DNA of 64,000 nt from Lineolata rhizophorae (Eukaryota; Ascomycota; Dothideomycetes; Lineolatales; Lineolataceae). The notes beneath the pieces are model-generated. The model did no database searches and was not told where the DNA came from. It saw only the letters and a program-made list of their open reading frames with translations. Position numbers and translations under genes: made by a program. Positions 13,992 to 52,841 of this stretch are shown here, piece after piece (positions within the stretch are counted from its first letter, which is position 1; each line of letters opens with the position of its first letter). The DNA lies in NCBI GenBank assembly GCA_010093515.1, contig MU001674.1, forward strand, positions 358,246 through 422,245, read 5' to 3'.

Positions 13992-15458
13992 TTACGAATA
14001 GAACTGGCTCTTCTGGAAGCTCTCCACGCCGATATCCCCGGGCTTCCCCGAGATCGGTGGCGGCTTCTTCGCGTCCGCCATCGTCGCCGCCCTGCTGCCG
14101 GGCCCACTTCCCGTGCCGGACATGGTCTGCGCCCTGCTCCCGGCGGGGCTGCCGGCCTGGCTCGCGCTTGTGATCTGCGCGGGCTGTGCCCGGCGCTGAA
14201 TGGGCTCGAGATAGGGACTAGGCAAGTAGCCCATGCGGCCGTCGCGCGCGCGGCAACGCCACCACTCGGACGGGTTGCCCATGGGGTCCGACTTGGAGAG
14301 CACGGCGACGAGGTCGCCCTTCTTGACGGCGAGGTCCACGCCTTGCACGTTGTCGGCGTTGGTGTCCGGCGTGAAGTCGTACATGACGCGGCAGAAGTCG
14401 AGCTTGGACGGGTCCAGCGGCTGCCCACCGTACATCTGCGGGTTCGCTTCCATGCGCTTGCGCTCTTCCTCCTCTTGCCCCCGAGCAAGGGCGCGGATAA
14501 GCTTGCTCATCAGGTATGGGAGGCCGAACACGGTCACGATGAAAAAAATGAAGGGCTTCTTCGATGGCCTTGCGACAGGGGAGCCGTCAGGATTTTGGCC
14601 CGTAAAACTGGCAAAGTTCGTCGGTGTCAGCTCCTTTGATGACGCCGGAGGTGGCCGGCCAGTGAGCTTTGCTATGGCTGTCCGTATCCAGCGCATAAGA
14701 GTGAAGATACCCAAAACGGACCCCAGCGTGTGTCGCAGCTGGCCAAATTGCTCCGCAACAGAGATCATGGCTAGAAAACGTAAACATATTAGCCTGACTG
14801 CTCCATAACAACCAAGTCTTGCAAGAACGCTGACTTACCGAAAAATGATGAATGCGTCGCCATATACGTGCTCTCTAGCATCTGCGCGAATCCACCAAAA
14901 GCCCCTACCATGCTCTCTATGAGCTGAAATGTCGCTTGCGTGCTTTGCGAAAACGACTGCGTGAGGCTATTGGGGTTATTCGGGTCGCCCGGCATCCCTC
15001 CCATGCCGGGCCCATACATGCCGCCCATGCCGCCCATGGGACCGTACATGCCCCCAATTCCGCCGTAGCCGCCATACATGGATCCGTATCCTCCGCCGCC
15101 AAAGCGCGAGTAGGGGCTGCTATAGCTGTTGTAGCCGCCGTAGCCGCCGTAGCCGTACGGCGACGACCCGAAACGATTCGTCGCATTGTTGTACGACGAG
15201 TAGTTAGAGGCGGTGCGGTTGACGACTGAGTTGAGCGAGTCGGGCCGGCCGGGCAGCGCAGGGGGCTGCGATCCTGACGCCGTGGCCGCTGTCGCTGAAG
15301 TGGGCGTTGCGGCGGTCGTCGCGCCTTGGTTCGTCATCAGCTTTTTCGCCGCCTGGGGCTGACCAGCCCAACAATGTTGTGAACATGAGCGTCAACGCAC
15401 CTGATGTCGCGGCCGCGCCGACGCCAGCTGTCTCCCATGGCTTGGGTGGCGAAGCCAT
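13992..15458 (-). CDS. PEX13: Peroxin-13, peroxisomal docking-complex protein
   Basis: The protein is 440 aa from three exons: 15401-15458, 14839-15324 and 13992-14770. It begins MASPPKPWE, the diagnostic fungal Pex13 start. A Thr/Ala/Ser stretch and a Tyr/Gly-rich segment (about residues 60-120, repeats such as YGGYGG and MYGPMGGMGG) follow; in yeast this N-terminal region binds Pex7. Hydrophobic segments lie around LGSVLGIFTLMRW and KPFIFFIVTVFGLPYLM. An SH3 domain (DFCRVMYDFTP..WWRCRARDGRMGYLPSPYLEPI) faces the cytosol and in yeast binds Pex14 and Pex5. The first intron is 76 nt and only the join SG/ATTAATPT keeps frame. A foldback element lies 435 bp upstream of the start codon. Confidence 0.96.
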
Positions 15459-15893
15459 GTCTGCTTCTTCTCCTCCGGGCTCAGCAGCCCTGCATCGGCA
15501 ACTCGTCGTTGGTGATGGATGGGAACGAGAGTTGTGATTCTGCGGTGCCACGCTTGACGTAGACGCAGAAAGAAAAGAGAGGTCGGCCGCTCGGGTCGGA
15601 GGGTCGGGAAATGAATATGTCAGCCACTAGGAAGCGAGCCGATCACCGCCGCTGAAAATGCGGGGTCGCACGCTCTTCGCAAAAATGCGACCAAAAACGC
15701 TCTTTGCAGCCACTTGACTTCACTACGGGTGCAAAAGAAAAGAATAGGTCGGATGGTACAACGTAGGGAAGCCACGACAGTTGCGGGTGGCAACAGGAAA
15801 GGATGAGCCGCGAACGGCTTTCCGCAGAACGAAAGGCTTTGGGTGGCAGGTGCCAGCCCGCTAGCAACGGCGCCGGCCGAGACTCGCTCTGTT
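15459..15893. promoter_or_regulatory. PEX13 upstream region
   Basis: This is the non-coding stretch between the PEX13 start codon and the foldback element, presumably its promoter. No specific binding motif was identified. Confidence 0.4.
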
Positions 15894-16372
15894 GCCTCGG
15901 CCAGGGTTGGCAACGATACTATTGATTAGCTAATCAATACCTATCAATACTTAACAATACCCCGCTTTACTAAAGAAAATTTCTAGGGAGAGCAAGAACA
16001 GCTCTAGACTAGAGAAAATATACAAATTAAGCCATCTGCTGGCCCGCTACGCGTAGGAAGGGAATTCTTTCCTAGTTCCTATAGAACCTAGAGTTAATAA
16101 CAGCCTAGTAGTTACCCCCACTGCCACCACCAGAACAACGAACTACTAGGCTATTATTAACTCTAGGTTCTATAGGAACTAGGAAAGAATTCCCTTCCTA
16201 CGCGTAGCGGGCCAGCAGATGGCTTAATTTGTATATTTTCTCTAGTCTAGAGCTGTTCTTGCTCTCCCTAGAAATTTTCTTTAGTAAAGCGGGGTATTGT
16301 TAAGTATTGATAGGTATTGATTAGCTAATCAATAGTATCGTTGCCAACCCTGGCCGAGGCTCTGATGTTGCC
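15875..16372 (+). repeat. Imperfect direct repeat flanking/overlapping the foldback element
   Basis: GGCCGAG..GCTCTG..TTGCC occurs at 15875-15896 and again at 16352-16372, with a 4-nt insertion in the first copy and a 3-nt insertion in the second. It overlaps the element ends by 3 and 9 nt. It might be the remnant of a duplicated insertion site, or chance. Confidence 0.35.
15894..16360. mobile_element. 467-bp foldback (long inverted repeat) element, MITE-like
   Basis: Left arm 15894-16113 and right arm 16141-16360 are reverse complements over 220 nt with a single mismatch, a C/T difference beside the AGCCTAGTAG segment. They are separated by a 27-nt loop rich in C and A. Each arm contains an 18-bp perfect palindrome, ATTGATTAGCTAATCAAT, at 15921-15938 and 16316-16333, and several CAATAC copies. 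There is no ORF inside. The outermost GCCTCGGC belongs to the inverted repeat, so no clear target-site duplication brackets it. CAGGGTTGGCAA starting inside each end resembles the CAGGG ends of hAT transposons (resemblance only). Near identity of the arms means recent origin or ongoing arm-to-arm conversion. The inner AT-rich composition differs from the GC-rich flanks. Confidence 0.85.
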
Positions 16373-17143: not shown

Positions 17144-18711
17144 TTACCGACCGGCAGAGCCAGCCATGGCGAAGATAGAGTTAAGGATGTCAGGGACGTC
17201 CTCGTCGCTGCAGATATCCTCGATGGTGGACTGGGGCATACTGGTACCGAATTCAGTGTCGTCATCGAGGACCTGGATGGTGAGATTGTCATCTTTGAAG
17301 ACGACGACGGCCTTCATGAAGCTGTCACCCGGGCGCTGAAACCAGTCCGAGGAGCCACCAGCGTTGTTGCCGTGGATAGTAGACTTCATGCGATGGTTGC
17401 CCGAGTCTAGGACCTCGAAGAAATCGGCCTCACCGCAGCCGGTGGTCCAGCAAGAGCAATCGGCTTGGCCATACTGGAGAGTGCGCGGGATCTGGGCATT
17501 GAGGCCCCAGAAAGCACCCATGTCCTCATTCCAGCCAGTCTTGCCGTCGTAAGGCATCGAAAATTCAATGAAGAAAGCCTTGTCAGAACCGCCGAAGCCC
17601 TCTGTAGCACGTGGTTAGCGATGTAAATTGTGCATTAATGTGTGGTCACATGAGCATACCGTAGGCGACGGAGCCAGGGCGAACGTAGCCACAAGAACCT
17701 TCCGAGCACTCGCGGTCCGACATGATCGCAATCTCGGTGTTCGACGGAAGCAGGACATCATCAAGTACCTGCGGCGAAGAGGCGCAGGACTGGCCATCAG
17801 AAGACACATAAGATAGCGAATTGCCGAAAGTGCTGCGAAATGTTAGCAATGACAGCGTAGAGAATTTGGACTAGGCGAAGACTTACTAGTCGAACACGCC
17901 GGAGCCACCGCCGCCCAAGTTGGCTAGGAAAGTGAGGCCGGTCGCAGTGCCCTCCTCAGCGTTGTAGTAGGCAACCTGAGTCCAGTCGCCGGATGCAGCA
18001 GGTGTCGCAGCGGAAGACGCCCCGGTGCTAGACGCCTTAGTGCTAGACGCTTGGGCGGAAGAGGTTTCGGCGGAGTAGTCGGCAGCCTCGACCGCAGCAG
18101 CCGTTGTATCGGCGGGAGCAGCAGGGGCGGTCGTGGCCGGGCTTCCGTCGTACTCGTTGATCCAGGAAACAACGTCGCCGTTCGCCCAGGTGACGGTGAC
18201 CCAGTCGCCAATATCACGCTTCTCCTCGGCTTGCGCGGTGTTCTTGACCTTGTGCAGCTCGCGGATTTCCTTGTTGTGCTCATGGAAATGCGCGTGGCCG
18301 TGGCGGCGCTCGTGCGGCGTGCGACGCGTCTTCTTGCTAGACTCGCTCGCCGACGACGGGGTGTAGACAGCCAGCTGCTTGAGGTGGAAGGGCCCGCGAA
18401 TGTGGAGAGAGATCTGCAGCGCGTAAGATTCTCATAAAAAGCGGTGCGCGCAACTCGGAACTTACATCCTCGTTCAATGGAGCCAGGGAGCCGGAGTAGT
18501 GCTCCGGCTGAGAGGAGCAGGAGCCGCTGTCGGCATCCATGTTGGTGACACGGTTGAAGGAACCCGCGCCGCCGACGCCCTGGTACGAGACACGGTCGAC
18601 CTTCTGGCAATACCAGTTGCCGCCGATGAGCTCGGAGCCCAGGTTGCACAGATCGGCGCCGACGCCGGCAGCGAGGGCCAGGACAGACCCCGCGGCGAGG
18701 AATGAGCGCAT
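17144..18711 (-). CDS. Secreted TOS1-like cell-wall glycoside hydrolase-type protein
   Basis: The protein is 467 aa from four exons: 18466-18711, 17887-18413, 17660-17832 and 17144-17601. Residues 1-20 form a clean signal peptide ending near GVGA. The N-terminal module (LCNLGSELIGGNWYCQKV..GVGGAGSFNRV) is the glycine-rich DUF2403 type. A Ser/Thr/Ala-rich linker follows, likely O-mannosylated. The C-terminal module (about residues 240-450; YYNAEEGTATGLTFLANLGG, MPYDGKTGWNEDMGAFWGLNAQIPRT, CSCWTTGCGEADFFEVLDSG) is the DUF2401/TOS1-like putative glycosyl hydrolase domain of yeast Tos1 and YJL171C. The GEADFFEVL segment with its acidic residues is the likely catalytic strand (inference). No C-terminal hydrophobic GPI signal is seen, so it is probably a soluble wall protein like Tos1. 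Confidence 0.92.
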
Positions 18712-21700
18712 TGTTGCGAGTCGGTATCGATGCTCGGTGTTTGGGTGTTTGATGGGCGCGATGTCGCGTGGCCGAGTGGAATGTCGGAGCTAGGGAGGCG
18801 CGGCCGTCGAGAACCGGGTACTTGGAGTCTTCTACGAGACGTTCCAGAAGGGCAGGCACGGCCGGGCAGAGAATCGGAAAGAACGTGGGTCTCGCGAAGC
18901 GGAGGCGCAAAGCAGAATCCAAAAAAACCAAAAAAAGAACGGCAAGAGCTGGCGAGCTGTCGTTGCTGGCAAGGAGTGACTGAGTTAAGAGAGCAGCGCT
19001 GGCGACAGCACACACACACACGCTCAGAAGGCACGCAGACGCCGGGTGAAGGTGTCTAGGAGAGGCAATCGAGGCACGGGCGCTTGGAGGCGGGCGTGTT
19101 ATTTTATTATGGGCGGTCCTGGCCCCCGGCGACGGTTTGGTTTGGTCGGCGGCGGAAGCCTGCGCTAGCGCCAGGGACACCCGGCGCTCATTTCGCATCC
19201 CTGCGCGGCGTGGCAGGCACCGCCCACTGCCATCGCCCGGATCTCCCAGGGGTTCCGGGGAGCCCTTGCCGCCAAGCGCCCGCCCACGGCCACCCCCCGG
19301 CCGCCCAGCGCCCGGCTCCCCCTCCCAAGCCCCCGAGCCAGCGACGTCCTCCCGCGCCGCCGCGCCGCCGCCGCGCTCGGCGTTTCTGCTTTCTGCCGGC
19401 TCGCCGCCCTGCAGCCCTCGCATGGCCATCAGGGGATCCCTCCGCGTTGCCCGTCCGGGCCGCTGGCACTGGTCGCGCGTTTCCAACGGGGGAGATGAGA
19501 CCCCTGGCCGGACATCCAACGATCGAGGCCATATATGAGGCAAAATCTGACCTCCATATGTCCGAGCCAGGCCTGCAAGCATGACTGAGCCCGCAGCCCT
19601 CCTCGCGCGTCCGCGCTGCGCTTCTGCCGGGCTCCATTTTGGCAACTCGACCGGCCGTGCCTTCTGTCGGAGGATCTGGCGTCGCGTGCACCCTTGTTGG
19701 ACCGTGGCCGCCGCGCGCTCGAGCGGGTTGAATCTTGAAACTTCGAAACGCGCCACTGCCCGCAATCGGGCAGGTCCAGCAATGCGATCGGCGCTTGCGC
19801 CTTGCCTCTTCTCGACCTTAGCCCGCCCGAATCTTACTAGTACGTCGAAATTTCCGCGTAATAATTGCCTGTGTGCAGGCCTGGATTTCCCTGAACCGCT
19901 TGTGGGTCGACGAACTACCTATAGCGCGAGCCAAGTCGTCGTCATCGACCACTGGTCCGCGCTTCTTCGGAGAGATGTTCGCGCTTTCGGGGGGGCTCTG
20001 TGCGGAGGCTGAGCGTTGGCGTCAACTAAACTTGGTATCCTCCGGGGGTGGTGCAGACAGTACAGTCAGCATATCCTCTTGTCGTTCCTTGCAAAATCTC
20101 CGCTGCAGGGCTGCTCCTTCAACCGGATTTTTCGATAGCCCGAGCATGCGAGAAGATGCACAACGCATGCAGGTCCAATTTCCTTGGACACATCCTCCCA
20201 CACAATCGGTTGCGGGGCAATGATACGCCGCTAAAGTGACCTCGTGCGTGATTCTCCCGTAAGGCTGTTGTGCTTCCAAGTTTCCTGCAGCTCATTGAGC
20301 TCTGATAAGCTCTGTTGTGTGTGCCTAAAACGTAGTGCATCAGCCAGCGCACCAGTGCCACGTCGAATTGGTTCACAACGAAAACCACTTCCTACCATAA
20401 GCGAAACATGTGCGACTTACGTGGTTCCCACGTTGCAGGACGAGAGCACGTTGCTAATCGCGGTCCGTTAGTGGACAATGCTTCCCGGCCTATTCAACAA
20501 CATTTGGTACGTGCATAGAGCTGACCTGTCGTGCCCACTCGGTCGGAGGAGAGTGTTCAGCGGGCATCGATACGCTCGCGAGAATTGTACGACGCGAAAA
20601 CAATATGATTAGCACTTCTTGGCATAGTCTTTCAACGTTAAGTTTGTCAGGAACTGAAGGCCAAAATTCCAGCCGATCCAAGAAATGTTCGGCTGGAGAT
20701 GGCTGGAATGTAATACACAGAACGCCAAGGTGGGGAGGGGTCCTTCTGCATCGTGGCAGCTAAGACGGCTGGCAGCCTGAACGATGTCTTGGCCGGGTAT
20801 TCGCTTGGGGTATATGGAGCATGCATGGAAGAATTGTGATCACGAGGGTGCGCTTCAAATCCCCTACGAGACGTCACACAGATAGTCAATGAGCAAGTCA
20901 TTTTGGGGTAGGTATAGAAAATCATTGTAAAAAGCCTTCCAAACGATTATAGACGGTATATTATCGCTTATCTGGATAATCCGACAGTGGAATTCTGGAT
21001 AAGAACTGTGTCGAATATCCGAAATCTTGGAAGCGTGGCTAGGGATGGTTGGTGAGTAATTGCAATCGCTTCTTGTGCCCAAGGGTCCCGGAATGGCGGC
21101 CCGAAAAAAACTTTTGCGACATGTCTTCGCCAAGACGGTCAAATTCGCCCTGATCGCTAACATTCGCGGCAGGGAGAGAGCCAGCAATCAGCGGAATGAC
21201 AACACACAAATGAGAACTCCAAACTTAAGAAGCGGGTGAGTATGGGATGGAGCACGGTTCTCAAAATCATTGCCAAACACGTCATGTCTTCACTCGGCCT
21301 ACAGACCGGCAAGTTTGACAAACACAACATTTCGCATGCGGTCAGGTACAACCTAGTATTTGTGTCAACAAGGCAACTTCACAAGGTAGCAAAAGCAACG
21401 AAGTACACGTGCAATAAAAGAAAGTCAGAAGTCCATTTAGATCATCGAAGCTAGAAAGCTTCTAACATAAGAGGTACCAGAAATATTGTTTATGGAGTTA
21501 GATCATCACAGAGAGTGCAAACGAGGTAAAAAGGTAAATTGGACTTGCACTTACTTCAATGGAGAATGGAAAATATGGATAGAGCAATGGCCACGCCATC
21601 GGACTCTAACTGAAATAAAATTGTGACTTCTGGGCCGATAGGGACAACGAATCTGCAACCAAAGGAGCCGCCAAACTGGCACCCATCGAGTTGATCGGTA

Positions 21701-22011
21701 AATTTGGCTTAAGTTCCATATCTCTGAGAGGGTGCACTAGTAAATGTATTTGTTTAGAGCAAGCAAACACGAGCGGGTCTCTCGTCCTAGAGTAGCTGAA
21801 GCTCGACAAGTGGACAGAAACGACAGCGGTGCGGTGGGAGAAACTGTCACACGTCGCTCGCAGGAAGCGGGCAATTCTCGGGCCGACGTTTGCTCCGAAG
21901 CTTAGCGATTTTGGCTACCCACAAACATTGCGGACCGCACATTATCGCCCTGACCCGCCACTACCGCCGTATTTCCTAGCGACAAGGTTTCGAACACAAC
22001 CACCGCCGAAA
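18712..22011. other. Long intergenic region without supported gene
   Basis: A strongly GC-rich block at about 19080-19750 produces long overlapping ORFs on both strands with Pro/Arg/Ala-rich translations and no homology I recognise. A short CA run lies near 19011-19020. From 19800 to 21990 only scattered short ORFs occur. I see no tRNA, 5S or snRNA motif. Confidence 0.5.
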
Positions 22012-22757
22012 ATGGGTCGACTCCACAGTAAGGGAAAGGGCATTTCATCCAGCGCGATCCCATACTCGCGCACGCCGCCTGCCTGGCTCAAAACCACCCC
22101 GCAGCAGGTCGTCGACCAGATCTGCCGCCTCGCCAAGAAGGGCGCCACGCCTTCGCAAATTGGCGTCGTTCTGAGGGATTCGCATGGTATAGCGCAGGTC
22201 AAGGTCGTCACTGGTATGTTAGGGCAGAAGTCTGGCGTGAAGTTGCTCAAAGCCAGAGGAGAATGACGCTGATGGTACGCGCAACAGGCAACAAGATTCT
22301 ACGTATCCTGAAGTCAAATGGTACGACTTGAACAATGCGTACTGCCAGCTTCGTGGAAATGGGCTGCGTAGTATTTGCGCAATACATATATGCCTCTGCT
22401 TGGTCCAAAGGCTGACAGAGTGATTTCTCAATGATAGGCCTCGCCCCAGAGATCCCTGAGGACCTGTACATGCTCATCAAGAAGGTAATGATGGTCTAAA
22501 ACGATGGACAAAGATATTCTATTTGGCCATTTTGCAATGCCGCACGCCATTGTAGATGGCTATTTGTGCTGACAATGCCCTAGGCCGTCGCTGTCCGGAA
22601 ACACCTAGAGCGCAATCGGAAAGACAAGGATTCCAAGTTCCGCCTGATTCTAATTGAATCCCGCATCCACCGCCTCTCCCGGTACTACAAGACGGTCGGC
22701 GCGCTGCCGCCCACCTGGAAGTATGAGAGCGCCACCGCCAGCACGCTCGTGGCGTAA
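22012..22757 (+). CDS. RPS13: 40S ribosomal protein S13 (uS15)
   Basis: The protein is 151 aa, the exact family length. Exons are 22012-22213, 22288-22320 (33 nt), 22438-22484 (47 nt) and 22584-22757. It starts [18 protein letters not shown] and includes [38 protein letters not shown] and the rRNA-binding [16 protein letters not shown]. It ends TASTLVA. It is a component of the small ribosomal subunit. Three introns in a short, highly expressed gene are usual for filamentous fungi. It converges with the SDC1 gene, whose stop is 268 bp away. Confidence 0.98.
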
Positions 22758-23731: not shown

Positions 23732-24111
23732 GATAATTGTAATGTAAAGATAACTCCAGAGGTCTATGCGCAGATGTTTGCAGATGTTTGCAGAGAGTGA
23801 CGGCGAGTGATGGTGGGGTTGTGGGGATGTGATCTGACTTTGAAGTTCGCGTAGGCATGGCGCATGCATGAGCTCCTTAAAGTGTGTAGTCTAATCATGA
23901 CAATCACCGCATAATATTTTTGAGATCAGTTAAAATACTACCCACAAATTTGAACAAAGTATATGGTAGACTTAAGTACCCACTCCCGCTATACATGCAC
24001 TGTCCTACAACTCGGTTGAGTCAAGTAGAAGTACAAACTCAAATAGTGAACTTCTGTCAATATTCACAACGTACAGCATGTTCCTCATTCCCATCACCCC
24101 TTACATCAATT
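23732..24111. other. Intergenic
   Basis: This is the SDC1 upstream region and 3' flank of the complex I gene. It contains a short tandem repeat of CAGATGTTTG near 23770. Nothing else is seen. Confidence 0.5.
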
Positions 24112-50600: not shown

Positions 50601-51413
50601 CGCTCTGGTCAGTGATTGCTGCATAGCCTTCATCATTCTCCCTGAACTGAACATTCCCAAGCCAGAGAATAGCGGAGAGCATGCGGAAAATGTCGTCCTG
50701 CTCGCTCTGTGGAAGCCCGATAACACGCATGGCATTCAGCGTATCTTGGTAATCGGCATGGTCGTCAATTCCAGCAACGTCGTAGCACTTTGACCGACTC
50801 GTATAGGTATAAGAAGTGGGCGGTTGAACCCCGAACAGCTCGCGGTGCGATTGTGAAGCTGCCTTGGTGAACTGATAGAAAATGTGGAAATTCCTCTCAT
50901 CTCTAATCTGACCAACGACTCTTGACTTCTCTAGCAGGTAATTCTTGATGTTGGCCCCGACAGGCTCCCCTTGCGCGTTGAAGTGGATTTCTAGGTATTT
51001 GCCGAATCGGGACGAGTTGTTGTTTCGCAGTGTCTTCGCGTTTCCGAAGGATTCAAGAAGCGGATTGGTGGCCAGCACCATATCTTTGATTTCCTGGATG
51101 TTCGAACTCGAACCTCCCGACACGTTGGCGATGTATTGCATAATACGTTTCGCGGCCTCGGTTTTGCCGGCGCCGGATTCCCCGGAGATGATGATACATT
51201 GGTTGTCCTTGTAAGCGTTCATATTGTAGTACGCACTTTCTGCAATCGCGAAGACGTGCGGAGGAACCTATTCAGGTCAGAATTTGGCCGGCCTACAGCG
51301 CGCTTTGGTAAACCATACCTCTAGCCTATTCTTTCCCTTGTAGCTCTCCAACACCTCATCGGTGTAAATCCCCACTAGATATTATCAGCTTTCTTGTCAC
51401 CAACCGTTTTTCC

Positions 51414-51445
<32 letters not shown>

Positions 51446-51897
51446 GCGAGCGCCACGTACAGTCTTGAAACGGGTTGACCGAGACCAACACATGTCCGAT
51501 GTATGTCTGTAGGGGCGCCACGGTTAGCAGACCAGATTACACTCGGCGCGCTCTTGATGCGGATATCTCGACCCGCATCAACACCAGGGCGGAGGACATA
51601 CGTAGATCTCGTGAGCCTCAAAGCGTTTCCTCAAGTTGTCGTTGATGGCTTCGTTGGACACCTGGCTCAGCAGCGTGAGGTCTGACACGCCCACCTCCTT
51701 CTTTTTGGACGTCTCGAAAACGGCCTTCTTGACCCCTTTCTTGCCTCCGCCGCGCGAGCTTTCAGCTGGCGCTGAACTGGCCGGCTCTTTTTTGCGCCCA
51801 GCGCGCCGCGTAACACCCTGGTGGAAAACAATAAAAGCCTTCGCATCAGCCGCCCGTTCAAGAATATAGGTAAGGACGCGAAAAGCAACGATACCAT
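47687..51897 (-). CDS. myoA: Class I myosin (long-tailed, with TH1, SH3 and acidic tail)
   Basis: The protein is 1242 aa from seven exons: 51895-51897 (ATG only), 51602-51817, 51461-51506, 51319-51374, 48812-51267, 48239-48759 and 47687-48117. It begins [11 protein letters not shown]. The motor has the P-loop GESGAGKT (about residues 136-143), [10 protein letters not shown] (switch I) and [20 protein letters not shown] (switch II/relay). RRGSVYDVP puts Ser at the TEDS-rule site phosphorylated by PAK kinases. Two IQ-like helices ([24 protein letters not shown]) are followed by a TH1 membrane-binding tail, a Pro-rich stretch and an SH3 domain ([29 protein letters not shown]). The acidic end DEDDW binds Arp2/3. 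It drives endocytic actin patches and polar growth. Confidence 0.97.
51375..51460 (-). other. Myosin I intron with extreme purine tract
   Basis: On the sense strand this intron contains an A14 run followed by AAAAG repeats (plus-strand TTTTC repeats at about 51410-51445), the reverse of the pyrimidine-rich tract usual before acceptors. Confidence 0.7.
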
Positions 51898-52841
51898 TTT
51901 CCTGTGCTGCTAGCTCTCGTTACTGAGACTATGTCCGCTCGTGTAGTCTGGAAAGTTGCGTGCAGTCGACGTGTGAAACCGTCTCGCGACGCGGTAGTAG
52001 TATCGAGGGTGAGAGTCGTAGAGGGGTGGAGGGGCGGCGGTCGTCGTCCAGACGTAGTAAGGAAAGCGCGAAAACCGCCGGGGACGGCGAAATGACGAGG
52101 CGACTGCCCAAAACGGCTTTATTTACGACGCAGAAGTCGAAGGTCAGAAGGAGGCGGTGTTGCCGGCGCCTGCTCTCTGCCTGTGCCTGAGATCGTTTGG
52201 TAATGGCCCGCAGCCATGCGGTGGCCGACGGTTGTGGACGGAAACAAGCCACCCATGCACAGCCACGCTACTGCCGCGTAAGAGCCGCGCAGCCCATGAG
52301 TAAAGAAAGATTCCTAACCCTGCAGTACCTAGTTTGGATATTGTCCTACGCCGGCCCTTCCTTTCCATGCTCCTAATTTTTTCTTGCAGTTAACTCGTCC
52401 CAGGCTTATTTGCGAGCTGACTTTTGTGAGTGCCAAAGTCACGCAGTCAGGCAGGAGCGTTCGCTTTAATTAAGCCTCGTCTAGGATGCTATTATCAGAA
52501 TCAGCAATATCACATATTTCCGTTGAAACATCTTTCGTCACACATTCGACGCCCAGGTATGTACTCCTTTTCTTGGAACATTAAATTCCTAGTTGTTGAC
52601 AGAAGAGCTAGACGTGCTATCGTCCTTCGTGAATTACCCAAAGGAACTGGAGGACGCCATTCAAACACCGCGCTACAGAATTGATCGCCGATGGAAAAAC
52701 CAACCGAGAACAGAACAGCAAGCCCCTTTAGCCGAACAATCCGGGCACCGTAATGGAAGATACAAATGCTACTCAACACCATAACACCTAGCAGGAGAAC
52801 TTGACACATACCGCTCGAGCTTAATACGAGCGAAGCGGCAA
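51898..52841. other. Intergenic, myosin promoter region
   Basis: It lies between the myosin I start codon and the Polo kinase stop. No supported gene. Confidence 0.5.

Follow-up and report, generated by a model that had tools for sequence, protein, structure and literature searches.

A near-perfect foldback element upstream of PEX13 in a filamentous ascomycete, probably a non-autonomous MITE

According to excerpts of the published descriptions, fungal hAT elements have an 8-bp target-site duplication and CAGNG ends; a central TA in the duplication is typical of the hAT element VdHAT1, and VdHAT3 is a hAT element with ends other than CAGNG (PMC3441728). Transposases bind conserved regions in the terminal repeats, mostly short tandem duplications (PMC3441728, in excerpt), and for Kat1 of yeast, an enzyme derived from a hAT element, both terminal and subterminal repeats are important (PMC4763223, in excerpt). 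The MITEs of Epichloe festucae (PMC6218096) and of Mycosphaerella graminicola (PMC4522978) are described, in the excerpts cited, as lying mainly in gene-rich regions, and one family of the latter has duplications of 8-9 bp. The element described here is a long palindrome in a 64,000-nucleotide stretch of DNA (the window). We consider it quite likely to be a non-autonomous foldback MITE, of the hAT or Mutator-like kind taken together, and it is probably a neutral passenger between PEX13 and TOS1.

Palindrome structure and genomic setting

The left arm (15894-16113, plus strand) and the right arm (16141-16360, minus strand) were each 220 nt long, were complementary at 219 of 220 positions, and enclosed a loop of 27 nt (16114-16140; 63% GC). 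The coordinates that the first-pass annotation had assigned to a foldback at 15894-16360, with 220-nt arms, one difference and a 27-nt loop, were exact. The sole arm mismatch set C at 16101 against position 16153 (T in the same-strand reading). Thirteen inverted-repeat pairs of at least 24 nt were reported in the window, among which this element alone had separate arms within 3 kb of each other. Besides the pairs starting in the element, exact inverted seeds of 14 nt with a spacing below 3 kb were present at two places in the 64-kb window, and no other long, close inverted repeat and no second copy of the element were found there. Perfect palindromes were sought in the window at 14, 16, 18, and 20 nt, and those of 18 and 20 nt were confined to the element, with one in each arm.

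The minus-strand RNA had a predicted folding energy of -427.8 kcal/mol, compared with a mean of -127.8 kcal/mol for 100 shuffles (z = -48). The predicted RNA formed one stem of about 220 bp, in agreement with the 220-bp hairpin that had been proposed. A scan of the element in six frames gave a longest stop-free stretch of 33 codons, which bears out the earlier view that it has no coding capacity. Among the features by which MITEs are recognized, terminal inverted repeats, short length, and non-coding sequence were found in this element (arms matching at 219/220, 465-467 bp, at most 33 codons).

The element had been placed upstream of PEX13, and this position held: Peroxin-13_N and SH3 matches in Pfam were found in two open frames on the minus strand (13992-15337), which correspond to at least two exons and represent open frames rather than a gene model. 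The 258-amino-acid frame at 13992-14768 contained both Peroxin-13_N and SH3, and the frame at 14789-15337 contained the start of Peroxin-13_N. When the first ATG of the latter frame was taken as the start, the element began 557 bp upstream of PEX13. The nearest recognized gene on the other side encoded a TOS1-like cell-wall protein (17147-18789, minus strand), with N- and C-terminal YJL171C_Tos1 matches in Pfam distributed over three open frames, again not a gene model. Its C-terminal domain was located in the frame at 17147-17614, and its 3' side faced the element at a distance of about 0.8 kb. A 613-amino-acid frame (17924-19765, minus strand) was rejected as the right-hand neighbor; it had no Pfam match, overlapped the TOS1-like gene in other frames, and is probably a chance off-frame translation in GC-rich DNA. 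The element by PEX13 is a candidate marker for presence or absence, and an effect on the expression of PEX13 is conceivable.

The genes of the window are those of a filamentous ascomycete. The closest Protein Data Bank entries to an Hsp70 fragment were 7olc (SSB1) and 5tky, which we take to be Chaetomium proteins, and the type I myosin matched one distinct sequence at a cut-off of 1e-200, that of 6ui4, presumably a Fusarium protein. These two matches suggest a Sordariomycete as the probable host. The stretch 51406-52367 started with a low-complexity CTTTT run, which was situated immediately upstream of the frame for the type I myosin. Furthermore, the minus strand at 21423-21513 matched Rfam Afu_264, a C/D-box snoRNA family that takes its name from Aspergillus fumigatus, with 65.8 bits where the gathering score is 40; a frame with a ribosomal S13/S15 N-domain match (21796-22263, plus strand) was close by.

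Element ends, subterminal motifs, and superfamily

Direct repeats were scored at 46 symmetric boundaries with repeat lengths of 2-11. Because a symmetric direct repeat that lies wholly inside a palindrome must itself be palindromic, the arm limit is the informative place. The best direct repeat near it was formed by CTCTGTTG (15887-15894, plus strand) and CTCTGATG (16360-16367, plus strand), which were identical at 7 of 8 positions and abutted 15895-16359, one base inside the arm limit. These boundaries, favored for their symmetric ends and for the best nearby symmetric direct repeat, define an element of 465 bp in which both ends start with CCTCGGCCAGGG, and the two octamers are the presumed copies of an 8-bp target-site duplication. 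At that fixed boundary, a match of at least 7/8 was reached by 0.05% of 20000 random flank pairs from the window; a repeat equally good at lengths of 4-11 and shifts of -3 to +3 was reached by 0.7% of random flanks, a figure that covers symmetric and not asymmetric ends. The 8-bp repeat is good but not conclusive support for a target-site duplication.

Other readings of the ends were also compared. A 9-bp repeat, GCTCTGTTG/GCTCTGATG, matched at 8 of 9 positions with ends that were asymmetric by one base, and shorter perfect repeats were found at asymmetric ends, such as the 7-bp TGTTGCC, for which the ends were 8 nt out of step. CAGGG, which matches the CAGNG of fungal hAT ends as given in an excerpt of PMC3441728, was present in both arms (15902-15906, plus strand; 16348-16352, minus strand), 7 nt inside the duplication-defined end, and offers an alternative left and right end. 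The octamers that flank this alternative (15902-16352), GCCTCGGC and GCCGAGGC, agreed at 6 of 8 positions and were exact reverse complements. Such a reading would need the duplication to have become fully inverted, for example by the hypothetical repair of a hairpin with a stem that extended into a near-palindromic duplication, which is an attractive idea. At the left end (15892-15913), TTGCC (15892-15896) was complementary to GGCAA (15909-15913) and enclosed CAGGG, which would allow a separate small hairpin at this end; the two outermost bases of this putative hairpin were outside the arm and had no mirror on the right. CAGGGTTGGC occurred exactly at only two sites in the window, the ends of the element. 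With up to two mismatches, the window contained 67 occurrences, compared with 67.3 expected from shuffles, which gives no sign of the ends of relatives there.

Four 10-bp motifs formed an array in each arm, the first inverted and the other three direct, in the order reverse complement of CTAATCAATA, CTAATCAATA, CCTATCAATA, and CTTAACAATA (15920-15959, plus strand), with its mirror copy in the right arm (16295-16334, minus strand). The array started 25 nt inside the end of each arm and had a tandem period of 10 bp, and the inverted and first direct copies of CTAATCAATA formed a perfect 20-bp palindrome. The tandem score of the three direct copies, which was the quantity tested and left the inverted copy outside the test, was reached by none of 1000 dinucleotide shuffles of the arm. 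Across the window, 22 start positions reached this tandem score, including 8 in the two arms, 1 at 23765, and 13 at 51.4 kb, the last in a T/C-rich low-complexity run. Given what the cited excerpts report on repeats and transposases (PMC3441728; PMC4763223), the array can be read as putative transposase-binding sites.

The near-perfect 8-bp direct repeat at symmetric ends and the subterminal array together support the proposal of a mobile foldback element or MITE. Its mobility, its reliance on a transposase supplied in trans, and its superfamily are inferred. The element would be a cut-and-paste DNA transposon of which two long terminal inverted repeats are left. Its movement would depend on a transposase from another element that binds the subterminal 10-bp motifs of each arm and makes its cuts at the ends, positions 15895 and 16359; insertion into a staggered break would give rise to the 8-bp target duplication. 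If the element is a MITE, its end sequence and subterminal motifs provide enough information to find sister copies, as well as the autonomous parent, in the genome of the host.

A hAT-type source is slightly favored because of the 8-bp duplication and the CAGGG motif, with a Mutator-like source second. The duplication matched at 7 of 8 positions and lacked a central TA; CAGGG was positioned 7 nt inside the favored end, and the match of the duplication fell to 6/8 when CAGGG was taken as the end. No transposase was detected among the 26 open frames tested with Pfam, a subset of those in the window.

The Mutator-like or Foldback-type alternative, in which a MULE transposase would generate duplications of 8-10 bp, differs from the hAT reading in superfamily only, remains within the MITE interpretation, and is a tentative second choice. 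Foldback elements commonly have long arms, and the 9-bp reading (8/9) also suits this alternative, but it leaves the ends one base asymmetric. According to the excerpt cited, duplications of 8-10 bp accompany 45 of 53 complete elements of Tm1 (Mutator/Foldback), a family whose inverted repeats vary in length and which includes a MITE-like class, for the most part below 0.5 kb (PMC3169594). Fungal MULEs contain subterminal direct repeats, and one has an 8-bp duplication, but their terminal consensus GGNAA, as stated in an excerpt of PMC3441728, was absent from the ends of the element. These read CCTCGGCC or CAGGG, and GGCAA was internal, 15 nt inside, where no symmetric direct repeat supported it. 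The missing GGNAA lowers the case for a fungal MULE. A Tc1/mariner source of the mimp type was rejected, as the TA duplication was absent at the arm limits; TA matches at least 25 nt inside the ends are forced by the palindrome.

Composition, age, and explanations other than transposition

The arms had a GC content of 41%, compared with 55% for the window. The GC drop that had been noted was therefore real, but the foreign origin drawn from it was not shown, because other stretches of the window were even lower in GC: the eight lowest-GC 467-bp windows listed (38.5-40.5%) were elsewhere, at 32.3-32.9 kb and 40.75 kb. This moderate drop was the sole basis for a foreign origin. Recent insertion or continuing conversion had also been deduced from the similarity of the arms, a conclusion that similarity by itself does not justify. 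Both arms of a MITE are carried along in each transposition, so that, unlike the identity of LTRs, theirs does not measure time. The one difference in the 8-bp duplication and the one in 220 arm positions, each a single event, speak if anything against a very recent insertion, and they do not prove conversion either.

The element had a TpA/ApT ratio of 1.70 and a (CpA+TpG)/(ApC+GpT) ratio of 0.77, which are RIP-like by the usual thresholds of 0.89 and 1.03, respectively. Both thresholds were passed by 76 of 636 windows of 467 bp, 5 of which overlapped the element. RIP is not claimed, as many windows pass and, if it had acted on the completed arms, they should have diverged from each other. In TpA/ApT, however, the element was conspicuous: a ratio of at least 1.6 was reached by 7 of the 636 windows, four overlapping the element and three at 51.6-51.9 kb. 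The 467-bp windows starting at 51601, 51701, and 51901, after the CTTTT run, had TpA/ApT ratios of 1.7-1.8, near that of the element.

Among the explanations that do not involve transposition, a hairpin-RNA locus, which would be transcribed and diced to small RNAs that might or might not affect PEX13, is improbable, although it comes before the others. The single stem predicted for the RNA would be a good double-stranded substrate, and the element is positioned in the upstream region of PEX13. However, the matches to the arms in the window outside the element were short (E 5.7), so that no target in cis was visible, and the ends and duplication fit a transposon for which an RNA role is unneeded. 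A further proposal, that of a lineage-specific foldback transposon family outside the described fungal superfamilies, would combine the near-perfect 220-bp arms, CCTCGGCC ends, four-site array of inverted and direct decamers, and 8-bp duplications with arms kept identical through conversion templated by the hairpin and a standing source of double-stranded RNA upstream of PEX13; we regard it as very improbable.

Slightly less credible still is a local inverted duplication of host DNA that arose through replication template switching and was later homogenized. Template switching can yield closely spaced inverted repeats, and the lack of a second copy in the window agrees with such an origin, but the arms matched no neighboring sequence in the window that might have been their source, and a terminal direct repeat and a tandem array in both arms are not expected from it. 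The least probable explanation is an assembly or library artifact such as a fold-over chimera; strand switching can create near-perfect palindromes, but a simple fold-over would continue into the mirror image of one flank, and here the outer flanks were unrelated to each other beyond the arms, the arms differed once and were unlike the flanks in composition, and the ends carried a direct repeat. Taken together, these features make an artifact unlikely.

Comparison with described elements

Exact scans of viral contigs with pieces of the element gave 0 matches, and a distant blastn search of plasmids and phages gave no match to it; both collections are non-fungal and carry little weight. A scan of prokaryote genomes with the 17 specified end bases returned 19 matches, all in records with bacterial titles, which is at chance level because about 30 are expected (257 billion bases, both strands, 4^17). 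When end-motif strings were searched in paper texts, no title on a eukaryotic transposon was among the matches listed, and one title concerned bacterial integrons. Among the matches listed from the open-licence literature, no title indicated a description of this element.

The element resembles mimp MITEs of Fusarium oxysporum (Tc1/mariner) in being small, non-coding, and located upstream of a fungal gene, but mimps, as described in the excerpt cited, are 200-220 bp long with repeats of about 27 bp (PMC3599309). The TA duplication of Tc1/mariner elements (PMC3441728, in excerpt) was not found at its arm ends. The MITEs of E. festucae and M. graminicola, for which the comparison is by description only, are likewise short and mainly in gene-rich regions (PMC6218096 and PMC4522978, in excerpt). 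Tm1 of nematodes, with inverted repeats that vary in length, makes duplications of 8-10 bp, in line with the 8 bp presumed here; its repeats are composite with a mean identity of 93.15% (PMC3169594, in excerpt), compared with 99.5% for the arms of this element. Fungal MULEs (VdMULE/Hop1) resemble the element in their subterminal repeats and, in one case, in an 8-bp duplication like the one presumed here, but the element lacks the GGNAA ends that the excerpt gives for them (PMC3441728).

Fungal hAT elements and MITEs (VdHAT1, Restless, Crypt1, Tfo1, and Drifter) have a CAGNG motif near the end in common with the element, and the duplication of VdHAT1 is of 8 bp, as is presumed here (PMC3441728, in excerpt). 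The MITE forms of hAT are also non-coding. On the other hand, CAGGG is 7 nt inside the favored end in contrast to fungal hATs, the duplication differs from that of VdHAT1 in having no central TA, and the arms of about 220 nt compare with repeats of 22 and 20 bp in VdHAT1 and VdHAT3, respectively (PMC3441728, in excerpt). Set beside these systems, the element looks like a clear-cut case of a common type of fungal element.
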